Shown here in pieces: positions 384-10,740 of a DNA stretch of 64,000 nt (position 1 is its first letter; every line of letters starts with the position of its first letter). Position numbers and translations under genes: made by a program. The notes below the pieces were generated by a model. That model saw nothing but the letters and a program-made list of their open reading frames with translations, was not told the origin of the DNA and did not search any database. This DNA is from Acidobacteriota bacterium (GTDB taxonomy: Bacteria > Acidobacteriota > Blastocatellia > Pyrinomonadales > Pyrinomonadaceae): NCBI GenBank assembly GCA_025463135.1, contig JAOAPY010000016.1:62001-126000 (forward strand). Direction: 5' to 3'.

Positions 384-1391
384 CTACCCTCTCACCAATC
401 TCGCCATGATCGCCTTTTGCACGTGCAAGCGGTTCTCGGCTTCATCGATCACCACCGATTGCGGCGAGTCGATGACGCCGTCCGTTACGATCACGTTGCG
501 TCGCACGGGCAAACAGTGCATGAAGATCGCATTGTTGGTGCGCGCCATCTTTGGTTCATCGACGATCCATTTGTCGCGGTACTGCGCCCGCGCGGCAATG
601 TCGGCTGCGGCGTCGCCGTAAAAATTCTTACTTCCCCAGCTCTTGGCATAGATAACCTCGGCGTCCGCGAAAGCCTCATCAATGTCGTTTGTAAGATTGA
701 TGCTGCCTCCTGCTTGTGCCGCCTGTTTTCTAATCTCAGCCAATAGATCATCATCCAGGTCATAGCCTGCTGGATGCGCAATGGTAACTTCATGCGCCAT
801 TTGGGCGGCCGCCAATGCAAAACTGTTGGGGACGGCCATCGGCAGCGGCTTTGGATGCCACGCCCAGATCAACACCACGCGTTTGGGTTCCGACCCAAGT
901 TTTTCGCGAATGGTCATCATGTCGGCCAGGGCCTGACAGGGGTGATGCATCGCGGATTCCAGATTGATTACCGGCACCCCGGCATACTTCGCAAAAGCTT
1001 TCAATATTGGATCGGTTCGTTCTTCATCCCAGTTTTTCAGCGCTGCGAAGGTGCGCACCCCAATCGCCGAGCAATAGCGACCAAGCACGCGTACGAATTC
1101 CGCTATGTGTTCCGTCTTATCCGTGTCCATCACCGCGCCCTCGCGATGTTCGAGCGTCCAGCTGCTGCCGCCCGGTTCCAACACCACTGGGTTGCCGCCC
1201 ATTTCGTAAATGCCCACCTGCATAGATGCCCGCGTACGCAAGCTGGGATTGAAAAACACCAGGGCCACGGAACGACCCGCGAGTGGCCGCGCCGGATTTA
1301 TACTGTGCTTGAATTGCACGGCTGAATCGAGCAGAGCAGTTAGCTCGTTCGTGGTCCAATCAGCGGTGCTTAGAAAATCTCGGGGCGTCAT
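384..1391 (-). CDS. argF': N-acyl-L-ornithine carbamoyltransferase (ArgF' type)
   Basis: 335 aa. Transfers the carbamoyl group of carbamoyl phosphate to an N-acylated ornithine, giving N-acyl-citrulline; this is the route known from Xanthomonas (acetyl) and Bacteroides (succinyl). Visible signatures are the carbamoyl-phosphate loop FFNPSLRTRAS (residues 46-56), W78 in GGSSWTLE, the HPCQALADM block, the WAWHPKPLPMAVPNSFA loop, and HCLPVRRN near the C-terminus. Overall it resembles Xanthomonas AOTCase and Bacteroides SOTCase much more than ordinary OTCase. The residue known to discriminate between the two acyl groups (Glu92 in Xanthomonas, Pro90 in Bacteroides) aligns with Thr93 here, in TDKTEHIAE, so acyl specificity is uncertain. 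Isoleucine replaces the lysine of Xanthomonas in RRNVKATD (RRNVIVTD here), as in Bacteroides. The start overlaps the upstream gene by ATGA, which implies translational coupling. Confidence 0.93.
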   Translation of the reverse strand: MTPRDFLSTADWTTNELTALLDSAVQFKHSINPARPLAGRSVALVFFNPSLRTRASMQVGIYEMGGNPVVLEPGGSSWTLEHREGAVMDTDKTEHIAEFVRVLGRYCSAIGVRTFAALKNWDEERTDPILKAFAKYAGVPVINLESAMHHPCQALADMMTIREKLGSEPKRVVLIWAWHPKPLPMAVPNSFALAAAQMAHEVTIAHPAGYDLDDDLLAEIRKQAAQAGGSINLTNDIDEAFADAEVIYAKSWGSKNFYGDAAADIAARAQYRDKWIVDEPKMARTNNAIFMHCLPVRRNVIVTDGVIDSPQSVVIDEAENRLHVQKAIMARLVRG

Positions 1392-1734: not shown

Positions 1735-3141
1735 CTAGTCGCTGCCTGTTTCGCCCCGTCTGAGCCCGAACATTCGGTAGTCTTTTTTCTCAATCGCCGC
1801 TTTGGGCAGGTCGCGATTCAAATAAAGCGACCGGCTCTTGAAATTGTCATACGCCAGGCCGGCGCTAAAAATTATTCCGCAGATCAGAAACAGAGCCGCT
1901 AGTGTCTGCCAGCGCCGGCTGCGGGCCAGGAAATCGTTCCAACAGTATAGGCTGTATAACATCACCAACGGAAAAACCACGTAGAGAGTGTGTGAGAGTG
2001 GCGCCTTCATCGAGAAAGCGTAGCCGACGTAAAGCAACACGACAGTTGCCAGGGTCAGGTATTTAATTGCTTGCCAATCAGAACGCGAGTGGCTCTTCTT
2101 AAACCATAAAATCACCATAGCGATCGGCTGAACGATGCCGGCGATCCCGAGGAAGAGGATGATCGGAATCAGCCACCAATAGTGCTTCATGAACTCCAGA
2201 CGCGACAGCGTGTTGCCGCCCAGGAAGCGAGCCATTTCGTAGCTGGCGAGTGAAAGAAAGCGACCAAGAATGCCTTCCGCCAAATTCCACTGGGTTAACA
2301 AGTTTGCACCGTTAAAGCGAACAACTTCCCCGGTGCGGCCGGAACCAGCGGCAAAGCCATACTTGATGTAAGTAGGCAGCACAAAACTAAACGTGAGCGC
2401 GGCGCCGGCTGCCGACCAGGCCACGGACCTGACCACGGCTCGGCCCTGCTCGCGATACTGAAAATAAAGCGAAGCCAACAGGTAAGGCAGAAGGATTACC
2501 CAGGACATGTGAAACTGCATGATCCAGCAAAGGGCAAACCCCATCATGAAATTGGCCCAGTGCCGCGGTATCAGCTTGAGGCTCGTTCGCGGAAAAGTTT
2601 CCAGCACGCCCACAAAGAAAATAATGCTCCCCGCCAGGACGTACGAGGGATTATAGATGTGTGTAGATAAATTCAGAGTCCACGGCGCCGTCAGCAGCCA
2701 GGTCCATATGAACCAGCGCGGCATGTCGGGGAGGCGTTTGCTGCAGTACCAGGCAAAGAAACAAAGCGCTGCAAAAGAGATGATGTTCAGCAGCACAAAG
2801 GGCACCTCGGGAACCGGTAATACATAAAAAGGAAGGCCCACCAGCAATCCCTGCAGTGCGCCGGGAATGTGTATCGAGTTCGTTACGTCCGGACCGAAGT
2901 AGGGCCATTGACCAGTCGCATAAAATTTCAAACCAATTAAGTAGATCTGCTTTTCATCCTCAAACCAGAATTCCGAACACAGTCCGAAAAGGAGCCGAAA
3001 GAGAAACGCCAGGACCAGCAGTGAGGCAACACCAGCGCGACCTTTGAGTATTTGCGGAATTTTGAGCAAAGCGATGTTTTGAGAATCAGGAGCGGTGCGG
3101 CAGATGCGGTAATGGGTCAGTTTGATGTCCGACAAGCTCAA
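1735..3141 (-). CDS. Multi-pass membrane glycosyltransferase-like protein (GT-C fold)
   Basis: Up to 468 aa, with about ten or more hydrophobic segments. After the first membrane segment (RAGVASLLVLAFLFRLLFG) comes a loop with acidic residues, FWFEDEKQIYLIGLKFYATG. This is the arrangement of GT-C enzymes of the ArnT / dolichyl-phosphate-mannose type, where an acidic pair in the first loop is catalytic. It would use a lipid-linked sugar on the outer face of the inner membrane; acceptor and sugar are unknown. The longest reading starts at a TTG lying inside a palindromic repeat (3126-3184), so the true start is probably an internal TTG or GTG. It lies between argD and the small membrane gene on the same strand. 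It has no evident arginine role and may simply be an insertion in the run. Confidence 0.7.
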   Translation of the reverse strand: MSLSDIKLTHYRICRTAPDSQNIALLKIPQILKGRAGVASLLVLAFLFRLLFGLCSEFWFEDEKQIYLIGLKFYATGQWPYFGPDVTNSIHIPGALQGLLVGLPFYVLPVPEVPFVLLNIISFAALCFFAWYCSKRLPDMPRWFIWTWLLTAPWTLNLSTHIYNPSYVLAGSIIFFVGVLETFPRTSLKLIPRHWANFMMGFALCWIMQFHMSWVILLPYLLASLYFQYREQGRAVVRSVAWSAAGAALTFSFVLPTYIKYGFAAGSGRTGEVVRFNGANLLTQWNLAEGILGRFLSLASYEMARFLGGNTLSRLEFMKHYWWLIPIILFLGIAGIVQPIAMVILWFKKSHSRSDWQAIKYLTLATVVLLYVGYAFSMKAPLSHTLYVVFPLVMLYSLYCWNDFLARSRRWQTLAALFLICGIIFSAGLAYDNFKSRSLYLNRDLPKAAIEKKDYRMFGLRRGETGSD

Positions 3142-3184
3142 TTAGCTTGTCGTAACGCTGCGACAAACTAAAGTTTGTCGGACA
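3126..3184. repeat. Double-hairpin palindromic element (CGACAA type)
   Basis: The outer inverted repeat TGTCCGACAA...TTGTCGGACA encloses two smaller hairpins, CGACAAGCTcaattAGCTTGTCG and CGACAAACTaaAGTTTGTCG. The form is REP-like. It lies between argD and the glycosyltransferase gene and covers the longest possible start of the latter. Confidence 0.75.
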
Positions 3185-3257
3185 TTTGCCGTTCCTGACC
3201 ACTACCATCCGGTCACAACCGCTTCCGGTTCCTGTAATGCGTTGGCCATTGCCGGCA

Positions 3258-4451
3258 TTATTGTTTTAGCGCGTCGCTCAACGCATCAACAAACAAGTCT
3301 ACCTCTTCACGTTTTAGACAAAGCGGAGGCAGCAAACGCAGCACTCTTTGATCGCTGGAGGTTCCAGTGATGATGTGTCTATCGAGCAGCGCCTTATGGA
3401 TCGGCGCCGCCTTGTCGGAAAATTCAAGTCCGAGCAGAAAACCTAGACCACGAACACTCACCACTTGCTCAATTTCTTTCAGACGCTCGCGCAAATGAGC
3501 TCCGACTTCCTTCACATTCGCGAGCATCCCGTCATTTTCGATTGCTTCAAGCGTAGCCGTGACCGCCGCCATCGCAATCATGCCGCCGCCAAAAGTTGTT
3601 CCCAGATCATTCTCTTTGATATGCGCGGCAATCTTCTCCGTGACCAAACATGCGCCAACCGGAATCCCGCTGCCCAACGCCTTTGCCAGCGTGATGATGT
3701 CCGGAACAACCTGCGCGCCCGCGGCACAGCCTGCAAAGAACCAGTCGCCCGTGCGACCTATTCCCGTTTGCACCTCGTCATAGATCAGGACGATGTCACG
3801 TTCATCGCAAAGCGTGCGCAATTCGCTATGGAACGCCGGTGTAGCCTGACGCACACCGGCCATCGATTGGATCGGCTCAAGCATAATGGCGGCCACTGTG
3901 TCATCCGCGACTGAGCGCACCGATTCGATATCGCCGAATTCGGCTTGCAGATGACCCGGCACATTTGGTTTGCCGATCTCGCGATACCTGCCGAGAAACG
4001 TGGCGCTGATTGCATCGGCGGTGCGGCCGTGAAAGCCGCCTGAAAAAGTGATGATGTTCGTGCGGCCGGTTGCCATGCGCGCCATACGCATGGCGTTCTC
4101 ATTCGCCTCGGTCCCGGAGTTGCAAAAGAAAGCCTTTGTCAGCGACTCGGGCGCAAGCGAAACCAACTTTTCCGCGGCGCGCGCTCTTGCATCGGAATAA
4201 ACCAGGTTCGAATAGAAAAGCAGTTTCTCTGCCTGCTCGCGAATAGCCCGGACCACGTGCGAGTGTGAATGGCCGGTCCCGGCGACCGCGTGGCCGCCAT
4301 ACAAATCGAGATATTTCTCGCCGTCGTTGGTGTAAAGCCAGACGCCCTCGCCCCGTTCAGCGACAATCGGCATCTTCTTATAAGTAGCGAGTTGATAGCG
4401 TTCTTCACGCTCAGCTACATCAGCGAAAGTGTTTCCGTCCTCGGGTGTCAT
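3258..4451 (-). CDS. argD: Acetylornithine (or succinylornithine) aminotransferase
   Basis: 397 aa, the usual length of class-III PLP aminotransferases. Converts N-acyl-glutamate semialdehyde and glutamate to N-acyl-ornithine and 2-oxoglutarate. Seen: GHAVAGTGHSHSHVV near residues 53-66, the phosphate-binding NSGTEANENAMRMAR (111-125), the SGGFHGRT motif (137-144), the cofactor aspartate in YDEVQTGIGRTG (around 224-235), and the Schiff-base lysine K257 in ITLAKALGSGIP. Its ATG overlaps the TGA of the upstream tRNA-binding-domain gene by four bases, so translation is probably coupled. Because the downstream carbamoyltransferase is of the acyl type, its substrate should carry the same acyl group. 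Confidence 0.95.
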   Translation of the reverse strand: MTPEDGNTFADVAEREERYQLATYKKMPIVAERGEGVWLYTNDGEKYLDLYGGHAVAGTGHSHSHVVRAIREQAEKLLFYSNLVYSDARARAAEKLVSLAPESLTKAFFCNSGTEANENAMRMARMATGRTNIITFSGGFHGRTADAISATFLGRYREIGKPNVPGHLQAEFGDIESVRSVADDTVAAIMLEPIQSMAGVRQATPAFHSELRTLCDERDIVLIYDEVQTGIGRTGDWFFAGCAAGAQVVPDIITLAKALGSGIPVGACLVTEKIAAHIKENDLGTTFGGGMIAMAAVTATLEAIENDGMLANVKEVGAHLRERLKEIEQVVSVRGLGFLLGLEFSDKAAPIHKALLDRHIITGTSSDQRVLRLLPPLCLKREEVDLFVDALSDALKQ

Positions 4452-4807
4452 CCGGCTCTCGTTCCGTCGGGAATCTGTTTTTCAGGTACAGCCAATACCG
4501 GCGTCAAACCATCGGCATAACCAATGTCGAACAACATGCCTTCAGAGATCTGGCCCAACATCTTTCGCGGCGGCAGGTTGACCACAAACAACGCCTGCTT
4601 GCCTTCGATCTCTTTCGGGTTTTCGCGCTCCTGCTTCATACCGGCGAGAATGGTCCGCCGATGATCGCCAAAGGACACGGTCAGCTTAAGTAGCTTGTCC
4701 GAACCGCTGACCGCCTCAACGGAAATGATCGTGCCGACGCGAATGTCGATCTGTTCGAGATCCGCCAGTGATATGGTTGGCTTTATTGGCACTGGTGTGA
4801 AATTCAT
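4448..4807 (-). CDS. tRNA-binding domain protein (CsaA / MetRS C-terminal type)
   Basis: 119 aa. The whole protein is one OB-fold tRNA-binding domain. Seen: LADLEQIDIRVGTIISVEAV, then SDKLLKLTVSFGD, RTILAGMKQ, and FVVNLPPRKMLGQISEGML, which are the classic blocks shared by CsaA, Trbp111 and the C-terminal domain of methionyl-tRNA synthetase. Such stand-alone proteins bind tRNA structure or act as export chaperones. It lies between argC and argD, overlapping argD by four bases. The placement in an arginine run is odd, and nothing in the sequence shows an amino-acid-specific role. Confidence 0.88.
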   Translation of the reverse strand: MNFTPVPIKPTISLADLEQIDIRVGTIISVEAVSGSDKLLKLTVSFGDHRRTILAGMKQERENPKEIEGKQALFVVNLPPRKMLGQISEGMLFDIGYADGLTPVLAVPEKQIPDGTRAG

Positions 4808-4818
4808 TACCTGGTGAT

Positions 4819-4894
4819 GTAGGGGCGGACGCGTGTGTCCGCCCGGCGGCTTTTGTTTGCAACGTCCAGGGCGGACACATTGGTCCGCCCCTAC
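4819..4894. repeat. Paired GGGGCGGAC hairpins between csaA-like gene and argC
   Basis: GTAGGGGCGGACgcgtgTGTCCGCCC faces GGGCGGACACattgGTCCGCCCCTAC. Each half forms its own hairpin and the two halves are also complementary. It fills the argC to csaA-like spacer and looks like a REP-type element, possibly transcribed as an mRNA stem. Confidence 0.75.
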
Positions 4895-4898
4895 GAAA

Positions 4899-5936
4899 CT
4901 ACGGGTTACTTCCCGCCAGCATCAATCCAAGTTTTTCATCCAGCCCGAACATCAAATTCATATTCTGCACTGCCTGGCCCGCCGCTCCCTTGACCAGGTT
5001 GTCGATGGCCGAGAAGACCACCAACTCGCGGCGGCGAACCGCAAACCCGAGGTCACAAAAGTTCGTCGTCTTGACCCAGTTAATGTCGGGCGATCCTTTG
5101 ACCAGCCGCACAAAAAAAGCATCGCGATAAAACTCTCGAAAGAGTTCTCGTATTTCTTCTTCCGCCAGCGCGGTTTTCATTTCCAAATAAATTGACGAAA
5201 AAATTCCGCGGGCCACGGGCAGGGAATGCGTCATGAAGATCAGCTCGCTGGTCCAATCGCCCACGGCCGACAATTCCTGTTCGATCTCCGGCAGGTGCTG
5301 GTGCGTGAAGGGCTTGTAGGCATAAAACGAATTGCTGCGCTGCGGATGGTGGGTGTTCGCAGCGGCCTTTGCTCCAGATCCGGAGGAGCCGGTTTTTGCA
5401 TCCACAATCACGCGGCCGGTAATTAGTTTGCCGGCCACCAGGGGCGCCAGGCCTAACAGCGTGGCCGTGGCAAAGCAACCCGGATTCGCGATCAAACGCG
5501 CCTGCTTGATGGCTTCACGATTGGTTTCGGTAAGACCATAAACGAACTCTGCCTGCGCCTCCATTGCGGTATGCGCGCGATCATAGTGTTCTTCAAACAC
5601 TGACTTGTCGCGCAAGCGAAAGTCGCCGGAAAGGTCTATGACTTTCAGCGTATTCGGCAGTCGCGGCACAATCTCCATGGCCTGCCCATGTGGCAGGGCC
5701 AGGAAGACGCAAGCGAGATCTTGCGCTCGCTCGAGTTGTTCCGCTCCAGAAATGAAATGCAGATCCGTCAGGCCACTAAGATTTCGATGCACTTCGCCCA
5801 CGGCTTTGCCGGCATGTTCATTGGCTGTGACGAAAACGATCTCCACGTGCGGATGAAACAGCAGGATGCGCAGTAACTCTGAGCCGCCATAGCCCGAGCC
5901 GCCAAAAATGCCGATTTTAATTTTCTCGCCGGTCAT
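4899..5936 (-). CDS. argC: N-acetyl-gamma-glutamyl-phosphate reductase
   Basis: 345 aa. NADPH-dependent reduction of N-acyl-glutamyl phosphate to the semialdehyde. The N-terminal Rossmann motif GIFGGSGYGGSELLRIL (residues 9-25) is clear. The catalytic cysteine is C154 in ANPGCFATATLLGL. GSSGSGAKAAANTHH and KPFTHQHLPEIEQEL are the substrate-side blocks, the latter with the conserved histidine. The NPGCFAT wording, rather than NPGCYPT, resembles my recollection of ArgC from organisms that use acyl-ornithine carbamoyltransferases, which fits argF' here. Confidence 0.95.
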   Translation of the reverse strand: MTGEKIKIGIFGGSGYGGSELLRILLFHPHVEIVFVTANEHAGKAVGEVHRNLSGLTDLHFISGAEQLERAQDLACVFLALPHGQAMEIVPRLPNTLKVIDLSGDFRLRDKSVFEEHYDRAHTAMEAQAEFVYGLTETNREAIKQARLIANPGCFATATLLGLAPLVAGKLITGRVIVDAKTGSSGSGAKAAANTHHPQRSNSFYAYKPFTHQHLPEIEQELSAVGDWTSELIFMTHSLPVARGIFSSIYLEMKTALAEEEIRELFREFYRDAFFVRLVKGSPDINWVKTTNFCDLGFAVRRRELVVFSAIDNLVKGAAGQAVQNMNLMFGLDEKLGLMLAGSNP

Positions 5937-6053
5937 AATTGATTATTTCTCGGCAGCTTCGCGCCTTGCGGGAAAAATATGTCCCGCCAAAGTGCAAAGA
6001 CGCAAAGTCAAGACGAATGCACACTTATCTACAGTTCATGCTAAGTTACAATC

Positions 6054-6097
6054 CCAAATCAATCGCGCCCAAATCAATCGCGCCCAAATCAATCGCG
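6054..6097. repeat. 15-bp tandem repeat, three copies
   Basis: Three head-to-tail copies of CCAAATCAATCGCGC, the third with one changed base. They lie directly upstream of the 48-aa membrane protein gene and in the region ahead of argC on the other strand. Possibly replication slippage or a repeated binding site. Confidence 0.85.
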
Positions 6098-6113
6098 AGG
6101 TAACTAAACACCA

Positions 6114-6260
6114 ATGCGCAACGCGTACATTGCTTTTTTTGCTCTCGGTATCGCCTTCATCGCTATCGGGCTCAGCGGCCAGCGGACCTTTATTTACATC
6201 GGTATCGTATTTCTCGTGATTGCCCTCCTGCGTTTCCGCCGCGCCGGCACTAAGAGCTGA
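6114..6260 (+). CDS. 48-aa membrane protein
   Basis: Short reading frame with ATG at 6114 and TGA at 6258. The protein begins MRNAYIAFFALGIAFIAIG and has two hydrophobic stretches (about residues 4-21 and 26-41), with a basic tail RFRRAGTKS. The clear hydrophobic periodicity, a positively charged C-terminus and normal codon use suggest a genuine small membrane protein. It converges on the P-loop gene and overlaps its 3' end by 11 bases. A GAGG lies about 14 bases before the ATG, which is rather far for a ribosome site. Function unknown. Confidence 0.6.
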   Translation: MRNAYIAFFALGIAFIAIGLSGQRTFIYIGIVFLVIALLRFRRAGTKS

Positions 6261-7311
6261 CCATCACACAAACAGCGTCCACCTTCGACCTGATGAGCGC
6301 AAAGAGTCGTGCGCCATCGCGGCGTGCGTTTGCGGCCGGAACTCCAAACTCTTTTTCAATATAATCCTCGCCCATCTGTGAATCTGTAACTGAACCCGCA
6401 ACCATATCGATTTCGATGCCCCGGCGACGAAACAACTCGATGCCGCCCCAGGCGCCGACATAGTCCGAAGCACAAAAGATGATCGCTGCTGTTGCCTCGC
6501 GCATTTCCTGATCGTCGAACACCGACTCTACTGAATATCCGCCCAGGATCCCGTCACCCATTTCAATCACAATGAAATCGGGTGCGCTCTCGTTAAGCCG
6601 GGCAATAACCGCTTTGGCAATGGGAGCCAGATCGCCTATGCCCACTGTCGAAGGCAAGCCACAATCGAGAAAACTGGCCGTCGCGATGGCCCCATGATCG
6701 CCCATGTTCAAAGTGTCGCGCAGGCAGGCCACGCCTGAAAGTTTGGCCGCCGCTACTTTCAATCCGGCGCGCGTCGCCTGTTTGATTAATTCAGTGGCCG
6801 CATAAGTCTTGCCGCTGTTCATGCAGGCACCGGCGATAATGACCAGGGGAGCGGTTGCGCCCAGCGTGGCGCGTGGGGTCAAGGCAGAGTCGCCAATGTT
6901 TTGTACGCGCCCTTCTTTATCGCAGACCAGACCGATCACTTCCAGTTTGATGGCATCGCTGAGGCTGGAATGATGGCCGGTGCAGTAGCCAATCACTCCA
7001 CCCATATTCAGCAGATGGAGTTGGTCGCCGCGCCTTACACTCTCAGGCACATCGCCGACAAAGCCTTTTAGTGCGCGTCTGCGTCCCAGCACGCCCAGGA
7101 GGAGATCGCCCGGATTAATTTTGGCGAGTCGACCCGTCGGCAGTTCCAGCATGTTGTAGGTTGCACTGTCAGTCAAAGCGCGCACCGCAACAACGTCGCC
7201 GGCCCGCGGCGCGGCGCAGTCGTCAGTGATCGCGACTGTGCGCGAGAGGTTGAGCGGAGAAGTTGCCGATCCGATTTTGTCCGCTTCGATAATGTGAATA
7301 GATTCTTTCAT
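6250..7311 (-). CDS. P-loop NTPase-like protein of unknown function in the arg run
   Basis: 353 aa from the ATG at 7311. An upstream ATG at 7377 would extend it into a palindromic repeat (7339-7400), so the shorter form is preferred. The N-terminal half is a beta-rich domain with the words AGDVVAVRAL and INPGDLLLGVLGRR. The C-terminal half is a P-loop domain: VIIAGACMNSGKTYAATELI has the Walker A pattern, followed by KVAAAKLSGVA, and FIVIEMGDGILGG occupies the Walker B region. Layout is similar to the DUF1611 and MobB-like groups, but I cannot assign it firmly. It lies between argG and argC on the same strand, suggesting a role linked to arginine or acyl-amino-acid metabolism. Confidence 0.75.
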   Translation of the reverse strand: MKESIHIIEADKIGSATSPLNLSRTVAITDDCAAPRAGDVVAVRALTDSATYNMLELPTGRLAKINPGDLLLGVLGRRRALKGFVGDVPESVRRGDQLHLLNMGGVIGYCTGHHSSLSDAIKLEVIGLVCDKEGRVQNIGDSALTPRATLGATAPLVIIAGACMNSGKTYAATELIKQATRAGLKVAAAKLSGVACLRDTLNMGDHGAIATASFLDCGLPSTVGIGDLAPIAKAVIARLNESAPDFIVIEMGDGILGGYSVESVFDDQEMREATAAIIFCASDYVGAWGGIELFRRRGIEIDMVAGSVTDSQMGEDYIEKEFGVPAANARRDGARLFALIRSKVDAVCVMVSS

Positions 7312-7338
7312 AACTTTCTCAACCCCCACGTTCTTTCC

Positions 7339-7400
7339 GTTTAGAAGGCGGACTTGTCCCCCGGTGTCGGGGCACAAGTGCCCAAGTGCCCCTGCTAAAC
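7339..7400. repeat. GTTTAG/CTAAAC-bounded palindromic element, copy 1
   Basis: Begins GTTTAGAAGGCGGACTTGTC and ends CCCCTGCTAAAC, with GGGGCAC in the middle. A sister copy with the same ends lies at 48221-48273. The TAG stop of argG (7397-7395, minus strand) is part of the element end. Confidence 0.75.
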
Positions 7401-8624
7401 GGTTCCGCGGCGCTGTGCCTCCGCCTGGCCTTGCGTGGCCCTCATCCTCAGTCGCAGCGCATTCAGTTTGATAAAGCCTTCGGCGTCGCGCTGGTTGTAA
7501 ACAGTGTCGGCTTCAAACGTAGCCAGCTTCTCACTGTAAAGCGACAGCGGCGAACGGCGGCCGGCCACCATCGCATTGCCGCGATAAAGCTTTAGACGCA
7601 CGTCGCCCGAAACATTCTGTTGTGTTTCGTCGACCATCTTGCGCAGCAAATCGAACTCCGGCGCGAACCAGAATCCGTAGTACACGCACTCAGCGAATTT
7701 GACGCCGAGGGAATCGCGTAGGTGCATCACTTCACGATCCAGAGTAATAGACTCGAGCGCTCGATGTGCCGCCTGCAGGATCGTAACGCCGGGAGTTTCG
7801 TAAACGCCGCGAGACTTCATGCCCACAAAACGATTTTCCACGAGATCGATCCGACCGATGCCATGATCGCCGCCAATCTTGTTCAAGGTCTCGAGCAGGT
7901 TTACTGGAGCCAGAGTCTGGCCATTGACAGCCACGGGCTCGCCCTTCAAGAAAGAAATCTCGAGATACTCAGCTTCGGTCTTTGCGTTCTCGGGAGATCG
8001 CGTTAATAGAAAGATGTTCTCTGGCGGCTCGGCCCAGGGATCTTCGAGTATGCCGCCTTCATAAGAGATATGCATGAGATTGCGATCGGTGGAATATGGT
8101 TTTTCAGCCGTGGCAGTGACTGGAATGTTGTGCTCTTTGGCATAGGCGATTAGATCGGTTCGACCTTTGAACTCCCACTCGCGCCAGGGTGCAATGACTT
8201 TGATGTCGGGCTGCAGCGCGTAGTAGGTCAGTTCAAAGCGCACTTGATCGTTTCCCTTGCCGGTTGATCCGTGCGCTACGGCATCGGCCCCTTCGCGCCG
8301 GGCAATCTCAATCTGACGTTTGGCTATGACCGGACGGGCCAGGGAGGTGCCCATCAAATAAATACCTTCATAGACGGCATTCGCCTTCACGGCTGTAAAG
8401 ACATAGTCACGCACGAACTCTGCGCGCAGATCTTCGATGAAGAGTTTCGACGCGCCTGTCTCCAGTGCCTTGGCCTCGAGGCCGTCCATCTCCTCGCCCT
8501 GGCCAACATCCGCGCAGTAACAAATCACTTCACAGTTGTAACGCTCCTTCAGCCAGCGCAGCATCACGGAAGTGTCGAGTCCACCCGAATAAGCCAGAAC
8601 GATCTTGTTGATTCTCTCCGTCAC
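7395..8624 (-). CDS. argG: Argininosuccinate synthase
   Basis: 409 aa, the usual length. Joins citrulline and aspartate using ATP. The PP-loop [17 protein letters not shown] is at residues 8-24. Further family blocks are [38 protein letters not shown], and [25 protein letters not shown] (in parts). No missing residues were noticed. It is the first biosynthetic gene after argR, separated from it by a 111-base spacer with a TAATCAG word repeat. Its stop codon lies in a palindromic element, so the last few residues may derive from it. Confidence 0.97.
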
Positions 8625-8637
8625 AAAAACTCCTAAT

Positions 8638-8667
8638 AGTAGTCAGTAATCAGTAATCAGTAGTCAG
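8638..8667. repeat. Short word repeat (CAGTAATCAGTAGT) upstream of argG
   Basis: TAGTCAGTAATCAGTAATCAGTAGTCAG is a run of near-identical 7-base words in the argR-argG spacer. It is one of many word-repeat spacers in the window. Confidence 0.55.
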
Positions 8668-8735
8668 CTTAGGTTGTTGCCGCAGACAAAGAACCGAGCA
8701 CAAAGGACAAAGGACGAAAGCACGAAGCCTACGTC

Positions 8736-9149
8736 TTATTCAAAAATCTCCCAAACCTTTCTGACCACCGTTCGCTGCATTTTGCGGTTCGTTACCGCGA
8801 TAAAAATAGCGTCCTCGCCGGCTATGGTGCCGACAATCTCCGCAATGGCGGCCGCATCGATCTGTACCGCTACCGCGGATGCCAGACCCGGCTCAGTATG
8901 CGCCACGACTAAAGCGTCGCCGGCCAGATCGAGACTCAGCAAGCCACGCGCGGCCGCACCACTGGATCGGGGCAGCGTATAGCGGCCCTTATGTTTCAGA
9001 ACGCCCAATTCTTCGAGGTCGCGAGACACACTCGACTGCGTCGCCGGCACTCCCGCACGTTCCAGATAGGATTTCAGATCAGCCTGAGTACCAATGGGCC
9101 GCGCCTGAATCAGGCTAAGGATCTTTTGTTGTCTGGTGTTCTTAAGCAT
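8736..9149 (-). CDS. argR: Arginine repressor
   Basis: 137 aa. The N-terminal winged helix (about residues 1-68) carries the DNA-contact motif ATQSSVSRDLEELGVLK. The C-terminal half is the arginine-binding hexamerisation domain, with GLASAVAVQIDAA and GTIAGEDAIFIA, the latter matching the GDDTIF motif in altered form. Known role: with arginine bound it represses arginine synthesis genes. It starts the minus-strand arg run and is divergent from argH. The intervening region carries ARG-box-like palindromes, so it probably controls both directions and itself. Confidence 0.95.
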   Translation of the reverse strand: MLKNTRQQKILSLIQARPIGTQADLKSYLERAGVPATQSSVSRDLEELGVLKHKGRYTLPRSSGAAARGLLSLDLAGDALVVAHTEPGLASAVAVQIDAAAIAEIVGTIAGEDAIFIAVTNRKMQRTVVRKVWEIFE

Positions 9150-9154
9150 CGTTC

Positions 9155-9198
9155 TTTATGCACCAATCTTGCATAGTCAATGCATAGATGCATAAAAT
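9155..9198. promoter_or_regulatory. Putative ArgR operators overlapping an argH promoter
   Basis: TATGCA-N7-TGCATA (9157-9175) and TGCATAGATGCATAA (9181-9195) are two adjacent palindromes with the TNTGNAT...ATNCANA character of ARG boxes. They lie between the divergent argR and argH. A plausible sigma-70-type promoter toward argH overlaps them: TTGCAT at 9169-9174, an 18-base spacer, and TAAAAT at 9193-9198. Position and symmetry support ArgR control. Confidence 0.7.
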
Positions 9199-9264
9199 AC
9201 GGGACGGGATGCAAGAAAGTCAAATGAGGTAGAATTCGTTTGTCGAAACCTGGGCTGGCTACAG

Positions 9265-9334
9265 GGTGTTCAGATACAAGCTTTAGCTGGCGTGGTTTCG
9301 CAGGCGGCAACCTGAAGGTTGTAGTCTGAACACC
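9265..9334. repeat. GGTGTTCAGA inverted repeat
   Basis: GGTGTTCAGA on the left pairs with TCTGAACACC on the right around a middle with AAGCTTTAGC and ACCTGAAGGTTG words. It lies in the argH leader, just before the ribosome site, and could fold in the argH mRNA. Confidence 0.65.
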
Positions 9335-9348
9335 TGCGGGGAGGGAAA

Positions 9349-10740
9349 ATGACCGAGGCAAAAAACCTTTGGGGTGGCCGCTTTACCGGTGTGGCCGATG
9401 CCGGATTTGTCGAATTCAATCGTTCATTTGGATTTGATCGACGGCTGTTCGCCGCCGAGGTGCGGGCCAGCGGCGCGCATTGTGAAGGGTTGCTTGGCGC
9501 GGGCGTGCTGAGCAGAGACGAAGCGACAGCCATCACCAACGCTTTGCAAAAAATCCTCGCGCAGGCGGAGTCGGACGAGAAATATTTCGAGGGGCCGGCC
9601 GAAGACGTTCATTCCTTTGTCGAAGCGCGCCTGATTGAACTCATCGGTGATACCGGACGAAAGCTGCACACAGGCCGCAGCCGCAACGATCAGGTGGCCA
9701 CCGATCTTCGCATTTGGTTACGCGACGAGCTGGACGTTTTCAGCGCCGCTCTGCTTTCCATACAACGGGCTTTGCTTGATCTGGCAGAGGCGCAGCGAGA
9801 CGTGATCATTCCCGGTTACACGCATCTGCAGCGTGCGCAGCCGGTCCTCCTTGCCCACTGGTGCCTCGCCTACTTTGAAATGTTCGGGCGCGACCGCGAG
9901 CGAATCTCGGATGTGCGCAAAAGAGTGAACGTCATGCCGCTCGGATCGGCCGCGCTGGCCGGCACTTCTTACGCTATTGATCGAGAGGCGGTGGCGCGTG
10001 AGCTTGGTTTTGCCGCGCTCTCGCGCAACAGTCTTGACGCCGTCAGCGATCGCGACTTTTGTGTTGAGTTCGCGGCCGCCGCGGCGCTGATCATGGTCCA
10101 CCTTTCAAGGTTGGCGGAGGACATCATTATCTACTCCACGACGGAGTTTGGTTTTTTCGAGTTGAGTGACGCGGTGGCCACCGGCTCGAGCCTTATGCCG
10201 CAGAAGAAGAACCCCGATTCGATGGAGCTGGTGCGCGGCAAGGCCGGACGAGTATTCGGACACACAGTTTCACTGCTGGCGATGTTGAAGGGTTTGCCGC
10301 TGGCTTATAACAAGGACATGCAGGAAGACAAGGAAGCGGTCTTTGATACCGCTGACACGGTAACTTCGTGCTTGAGAGTAAGCACGACGGTGCTGCGCAA
10401 TCTGCGGGTTAATGAAGAACGGACTGGCGCCGCGTCGGCCGCGGGTTATATGAACGCGACCGAATTGGCTGACTATCTGGTGCGCAAAGGTGTGACCTTT
10501 CGCGAGGCGCATGAAACGGTCGGCAGAGTTGTGCTGCGTGGACTTGAGTTGGGAGTTGAGTTACAGGAACTGTCGTTGGAAGATTTGCAGGCGTTCTCTT
10601 CATCGATCGAAGAGGATGTGTATGAAGCGCTTTCAATCGAGAGTACGCTGGCCACCAAATCGCAGTTGGGCGGCACGTCTCGAGGGCAAGTGAGGGAAGC
10701 GCTGATGGCAGCGCGCGCATCGATGGAAACTGGTCCTTAG
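9349..10740 (+). CDS. argH: Argininosuccinate lyase
   Basis: 463 aa, the normal length. Splits argininosuccinate into arginine and fumarate. The fumarase/aspartase superfamily signature GSSLMPQKKNPDSMELVRG is intact and includes the catalytic serine. HTGRSRNDQVATDLRIWLRDE and GYTHLQRAQPV are the other conserved blocks. GGAGGG lies four bases ahead of the ATG. It is divergent from the rest of the arg genes with a shared control region. Confidence 0.97.
   Translation: MTEAKNLWGGRFTGVADAGFVEFNRSFGFDRRLFAAEVRASGAHCEGLLGAGVLSRDEATAITNALQKILAQAESDEKYFEGPAEDVHSFVEARLIELIGDTGRKLHTGRSRNDQVATDLRIWLRDELDVFSAALLSIQRALLDLAEAQRDVIIPGYTHLQRAQPVLLAHWCLAYFEMFGRDRERISDVRKRVNVMPLGSAALAGTSYAIDREAVARELGFAALSRNSLDAVSDRDFCVEFAAAAALIMVHLSRLAEDIIIYSTTEFGFFELSDAVATGSSLMPQKKNPDSMELVRGKAGRVFGHTVSLLAMLKGLPLAYNKDMQEDKEAVFDTADTVTSCLRVSTTVLRNLRVNEERTGAASAAGYMNATELADYLVRKGVTFREAHETVGRVVLRGLELGVELQELSLEDLQAFSSSIEEDVYEALSIESTLATKSQLGGTSRGQVREALMAARASMETGP

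Follow-up and report, generated by a model that had tools for sequence, protein, structure and literature searches.

We found that the knotted-type carbamoyltransferase gene argF', located at 384-1391 on the minus strand of the window (the whole stretch of 64,000 nucleotides analysed here, from a genome of the family Pyrinomonadaceae, Acidobacteriota), probably encodes, judging from its sequence, an N-succinyl-L-ornithine carbamoyltransferase (SOTCase) of anabolic function, in which the position that switches between acetyl and succinyl substrates is taken by a residue new there, threonine. Such an enzyme would extend a known kind only modestly.

The open reading frame is intact and codes for 335 amino acids, with all carbamoyltransferase motifs present (SLRT at 50, HPCQ at 150 and HCLP at 292). 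Its assignment is based on the NCBIfam model PRK04523 (462.7 bits, cut-off 288), on matches in the PDB and on the predicted structure. The top hit of a phmmer search against the PDB is the AOTCase of Xanthomonas campestris (E ~1e-102), followed by the SOTCase of Bacteroides fragilis (1.3e-68); the protein is 50% identical to the 3KZC group (Xanthomonas AOTCase) and 38-39% identical to the 1JS1/2FG6 group (Bacteroides SOTCase). The AlphaFold model (pLDDT 93.9) superimposes on 3KZM with a TM score of 0.95 and an rmsd of 1.2, and on 2FG6/2G7M with TM scores of 0.86-0.88. The active-site residues S50, W78, R113, E145, H179, K250 and R297 are kept, and as far as sequence and model can tell the protein has the traits of the knotted transcarbamylases (AOTCase, SOTCase and YTCase), that is, the HPKPLP proline-rich loop, Trp78 of the 80's loop and the fold of the group. 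Its carbamoyltransferase fold and core motifs are those of plain ornithine carbamoyltransferases (OTCases) as well, but that it is one of them is very improbable indeed: the OTCase models give 233 bits against a cut-off of 306, the phylum's ordinary OTCases branch off separately in the tree with 100% support, and it has the Trp78, proline-rich loop and Lys250 that belong to the acyl-ornithine enzymes. The earlier note, which had called the gene ArgF'-type rather than a plain OTCase, was right in this respect. ArgF' is the sole arginine-type carbamoyltransferase in the window's genome; the other carbamoyltransferase match is pyrB, flanked by pyrR and pyrC.

According to a review of the family (PMC4581275), AOTCases are marked by Glu92, Asn185 and Lys302 (Xanthomonas numbering), and SOTCases by Ala, Ser, Pro, Val or Gln at 92, Pro at 185 and Val, Ile or Glu at 302. 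Similarly, GapMind (PMC7311316) links S, P, A or V at position 92 to succinyl preference, and the PDB titles 3L02, 3L04, 3L05 and 3L06 describe the E92A/E92P/E92S/E92V mutants of Xanthomonas AOTCase, solved with an N-succinyl ligand. We aligned ArgF' jointly with the enzymes of X. sacchari, Bacteroides, Parabacteroides, Persicobacter and Bernardetia. The switch residue is Thr93 (codon ACG, complement of 1113-1115), which corresponds to E92 in Xanthomonas and P90 in Bacteroides; since an invariant Glu-His pair follows directly, the alignment of this position is beyond doubt. At the second position we find Pro184 (codon 840-842, minus strand; N185 in Xanthomonas, P181 in Bacteroides) and at the third Ile301 (codon 489-491, minus strand; K302 in Xanthomonas, Ile in Bacteroides), and both are the SOTCase state in PMC4581275. 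In other words, ArgF' carries none of the three AOTCase markers (Glu92 is replaced by Thr, Asn185 by Pro and Lys302 by Ile) and two of the three SOTCase markers, Thr93 being outside the published A/S/P/V/Q list. In the phylum that uses the succinyl pathway the corresponding sets are P/P/I for Bacteroides and Q/P/V or Q/P/I for Persicobacter and Bernardetia. Threonine is isosteric with valine and has the hydroxyl group and the polarity of serine; although off the list, it is chemically beside Ser and Val. Among the residues anchoring the succinyl group in SOTCase (His176, Arg178 and Arg278 in Bacteroides numbering), two have counterparts in ArgF', His179 and Arg297, which AOTCase has too, and the position of Arg178 is occupied by Lys, as it is in Parabacteroides.

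The alignment bears out what the earlier note had seen: Thr at the switch, with neither Glu nor Pro aligned there, a Bacteroides-like Lys before it, the LPMAVPNSF stretch, and the Xanthomonas-like DEAENRLHVQKAIMA. The lysine of Xanthomonas RRNVKATD is indeed Ile (I301 = K302), which is not odd, given that V/I/E is the published SOTCase state (PMC4581275). On the other hand, the idea that such mixed features indicate an intermediate specificity finds no support. The discriminating positions 92, 185 and 302 are all of the non-AOTCase kind, Thr is exchanged for Ala or Ser among close orthologues, and the AOTCase-like C-terminal stretch, found commonly among Acidobacteriota enzymes with SOTCase markers, does not discriminate.

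Could the enzyme nevertheless be an N-acetylornithine carbamoyltransferase, as its automatic name says, in which Thr93 makes a different contact with the acetyl group? The PRK04523 equivalog of that name matches well above its cut-off, the identity to Xanthomonas AOTCase (50%) is higher than that to Bacteroides SOTCase (42%), and the window's genome has an ArgE-type deacetylase gene (426 bits, over the cut-off). The family name does not discriminate, since NCBI gives the Bacteroidota ArgF' proteins in our set the same or a like name, and we rejected it as substrate evidence because it cannot separate acetyl from succinyl. We also rejected the ArgE-type gene as a sign of acetyl intermediates: at the threshold used only 4 of the 31 sampled family genomes match, so this deacetylase is not a regular partner, and a match at that threshold is lacking in 24 of the 28 family genomes with a Thr-type ArgF'. 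The gene adjoins an amidohydrolase gene that by eye resembles hutF, and not arginine genes. With Glu92, Asn185 and Lys302 absent from ArgF', we consider an acetyl substrate unlikely and prefer the succinyl one.

How widespread is this enzyme? Our sample comprised 396 genomes of Acidobacteriota, of which 98 have an ArgF' of this type; note that all genome counts treat genomes as independent and ignore shared ancestry. Within the Pyrinomonadaceae, Thr is at the switch in all 28 sampled genomes that have ArgF', which shows that Thr93 is no sequencing accident. In the rest of the phylum most enzymes have A, S, P, V or T at the switch, and one has I, accompanied by Pro and V/I/E (K twice). Thr is found at the switch of a planctomycetal enzyme (L163) as well.

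We calculated a tree from 59 knotted-type enzymes and seven OTCases, leaving out the three trait columns. Thr is interleaved with Ala and Ser, with six changes, among orthologues that have the same gene neighbours and operon. For example, L031 has Thr where L032, at 82.7% identity, has Ala, and L038 (Thr) is grouped with L034 and L036 (both Ser). The E/N/K enzymes form a starred branch of their own (98), where L053 groups with Xanthomonas. The family phylogeny, which the earlier note had named as a check, places Thr amid Ala and Ser enzymes and away from the E/N/K branch. A relaxed specificity for acetyl and succinyl, or a preference for malonyl, glutaryl or some further small dicarboxylic acyl group, could be imagined for a residue whose size is between Ala and Val and which might admit several groups, and no residue speaks against it. 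However, the gene cluster gives no pointer to another acyl-CoA and the close orthologues have Ala or Ser, the usual succinyl residues, so that we regard this reading as improbable and keep to a SOTCase.

The sole sampled Acidobacteriota genome with an E/N/K AOTCase is that of L053 (G059, 2146-9543). Its cluster, which resembles that of Xanthomonas, includes a synthase-kinase-like argB and lacks the gene that we call gene X below. Another single case is an ArgF' with Glu, Ser and Glu at the three positions (L045, 7380-8375, genome G152), which is nested among Ala/Pro/Val enzymes, has a sister (L044) that is 75% identical, and has no recognised arginine genes alongside. It is possible that this enzyme represents an independent reversal to acetyl or a change to another substrate.

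In the window, argF' is part of an arginine gene cluster on the minus strand. Starting from argR (arginine repressor, 8736-9149), the order is argG (argininosuccinate synthase, 7395-8624), gene X (6250-7377), argC (N-acyl-gamma-glutamyl-phosphate reductase, 4899-5936; TIGR01850, 399 bits), a gene for a tRNA-binding domain, argD (N-acylornithine aminotransferase, 3258-4451; NCBIfam PRK01278, 373.4 bits, cut-off 372), a gene for a glycosyltransferase-like membrane protein, a CBU_0592 gene, argF' and argB (N-acylglutamate kinase; the gene start is at 2-262, 302 aa in the full contig). The argH gene (argininosuccinate lyase, without a fused acetyltransferase domain) is divergent, at 9349-10740 on the plus strand. 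The tRNA-binding domain between argC and argD (4448-4807) stands alone, resembles the C-terminus of methionyl-tRNA synthetase and is kept in several relatives.

We were not able to find ArgJ or, over the cut-off, a classical ArgA in the window's genome; the ArgA model matched argB and a generic GNAT below the cut-off, and this GNAT (G000:C37) was dismissed as ArgA, being far under it. The GNAT N-succinylglutamate synthase of the BT3761 type was found in none of the 396 Acidobacteriota genomes, and the same query, as a positive control, finds it in three Bacteroidota records.

Gene X codes for a P-loop protein that has no Pfam or NCBIfam assignment and is conserved in arginine clusters. In nearly all examined Acidobacteriota loci with enough flank it lies in the arginine cluster, usually between argG and argC, and it also occurs on Planctomycetota, deltaproteobacterial and Wallbacteria contigs. 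Again ignoring shared ancestry, it is found together with ArgF' in 85 of the 98 genomes with ArgF', and none of the 100 genomes with X has ArgJ, compared with 148 of the 296 without X. Furthermore, in ten genomes that have X but lack both ArgF' and ArgJ, X is the first gene of an X-argC-argD-argB operon, which corresponds exactly to the steps from glutamate to N-acylornithine. In the clusters with an M20 deacylase, every gene except X can be given a role, and every role except that of the acylglutamate synthase has its gene. From these patterns we infer that gene X may well encode the missing N-acylglutamate synthase, and we consider this rather likely; that it is specifically a succinyl enzyme is less likely than the general role.

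The model of gene X (pLDDT 92.3) has a P-loop domain of the kind seen in BioD and CTP synthase. Its structural match with the highest Z is 2G0T (DUF1611-type, Z 16.9), and others are 2OBN (DUF1611, 15.8) and 7XRJ (the N-acetyltransferase DgcN, 15.3); dethiobiotin and CTP synthases reach Z 15-16, which on the scale of the tool ties with the DUF1611 matches. DgcN acetylates D-glutamate. In published work, it opens a route of D-glutamate racemisation. The Pfam model PF07755 (DUF1611) gives gene X 17.7 bits, below the gathering score of 25, a tblastn search connects it to an annotated DUF1611 protein (E 6e-16 over 86%), and relatives on plasmids with 27-32% identity are annotated as DUF1611 or dethiobiotin synthase. 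We have filed gene X only as a distant relative of DUF1611.

No X was detected in 13 genomes with ArgF', eight of them in the window's family (L226-L233, all Thr-type), and no replacement was visible beside their arginine genes; a GNAT near the arginine genes of one of these (L233), which we considered as the synthase, proved to be RimI. A more remote branch of X (L176, L178, L235, L237 and L238) is found at a distance from arginine genes, beside a gene for an ABC transporter, and likely has a different function. Another relative (32%), on a plasmid of Priestia megaterium (L236, 730-8807), is in an apparent phosphonate natural-product cluster together with genes for a carbamoyltransferase, ATP-grasp enzymes, an M20 peptidase and a PEP-mutase-type protein, which suggests acylation and deacylation there too.

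How might the pathway work? In AOTCase, Glu92 occupies the room and the charge that the succinyl carboxylate would need. Thr93 would leave the pocket open and uncharged, and the succinyl group could then reach the conserved His179, Lys181 and Arg297. Glutamate would be converted to N-succinylglutamate, putatively by gene X, and further to N-succinylornithine by ArgB, ArgC and ArgD, presumably acting on succinylated substrates; ArgF' would then produce N-succinylcitrulline, from which a putative M20 deacylase would release citrulline for ArgG and ArgH. Other Acidobacteriota clusters with this ArgF' also contain a Bacteroidota-type M20 deacylase and ArgG, and this deacylase was not found in the Blastocatellia clusters. 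An M20 gene at about 21.1-22.1 kb of G000:C7 (L196, 1595-2599) adjoins an aspartokinase gene. Since its counterpart in G325, to which it is 57% identical, adjoins argB, we regard it as the best deacylase candidate, and it may be a deacylase common to the lysine and arginine routes. A second M20 gene, at about 163 kb of the same contig, was discarded after a search at 1e-30, run without a positive control, did not find it in 12 relatives.

Taken together, gene X may represent a new class of N-acylglutamate (probably N-succinylglutamate) synthases that is neither GNAT nor ArgJ, built on a BioD/DUF1611-like P-loop fold. In Acidobacteriota, Planctomycetota and deltaproteobacterial lineages alike, this class would then serve a succinylated pathway to arginine together with ArgF' enzymes of the Thr, Ala, Ser or Pro type. 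We put this forward tentatively, as something that may equally turn out otherwise. If the reading of ArgF' is true, the "N-acetylornithine carbamoyltransferases" of Acidobacteriota most likely handle succinylated intermediates, the annotation is to be corrected family-wide, and Thr is to be added to the list of SOTCase residues. Gene X is a concrete candidate for the enzyme that opens arginine synthesis where ArgA, ArgJ and the Bacteroidota GNAT are lacking; should its role be confirmed, predictions of arginine auxotrophy for soil bacteria would change, and an unexpected fold would join glutamate acylation.

Finally, we compared these proteins with known systems. With the B. fragilis SOTCase (1JS1, 2FG6, 2G7M), ArgF' shares Pro as the second marker, Ile as the third, a switch residue other than Glu, the active-site residues and, by our reading, an anabolic role in arginine synthesis; it differs in having Thr instead of Pro at 90 and Lys, as in Parabacteroides, instead of Arg at 178, and the first enzyme of the cluster is not the same. 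With the X. campestris AOTCase (3KZC and mutants) it shares a near-identical fold (TM 0.95), the sequence of the C-terminal helix and 50% identity, whereas Glu92, Asn185 and Lys302 are missing and no synthase-kinase adjoins argF'. DUF1611 and DgcN (7XRJ, 2G0T, 2OBN) have in common with gene X the P-loop domain and, going by the extent of the alignments, some of the domain before it (Z 15.3-16.9), but identity is 12-16% and X is tied to L-arginine genes. The succinyl-arginine pathway of Bacteroidota (GapMind, PMC7311316) has the order argG, argC, argD, argF', argB, M20, argH in common with many Acidobacteriota relatives, while in place of its BT3761-type GNAT, not found in the 396 Acidobacteriota genomes, the cluster contains gene X.
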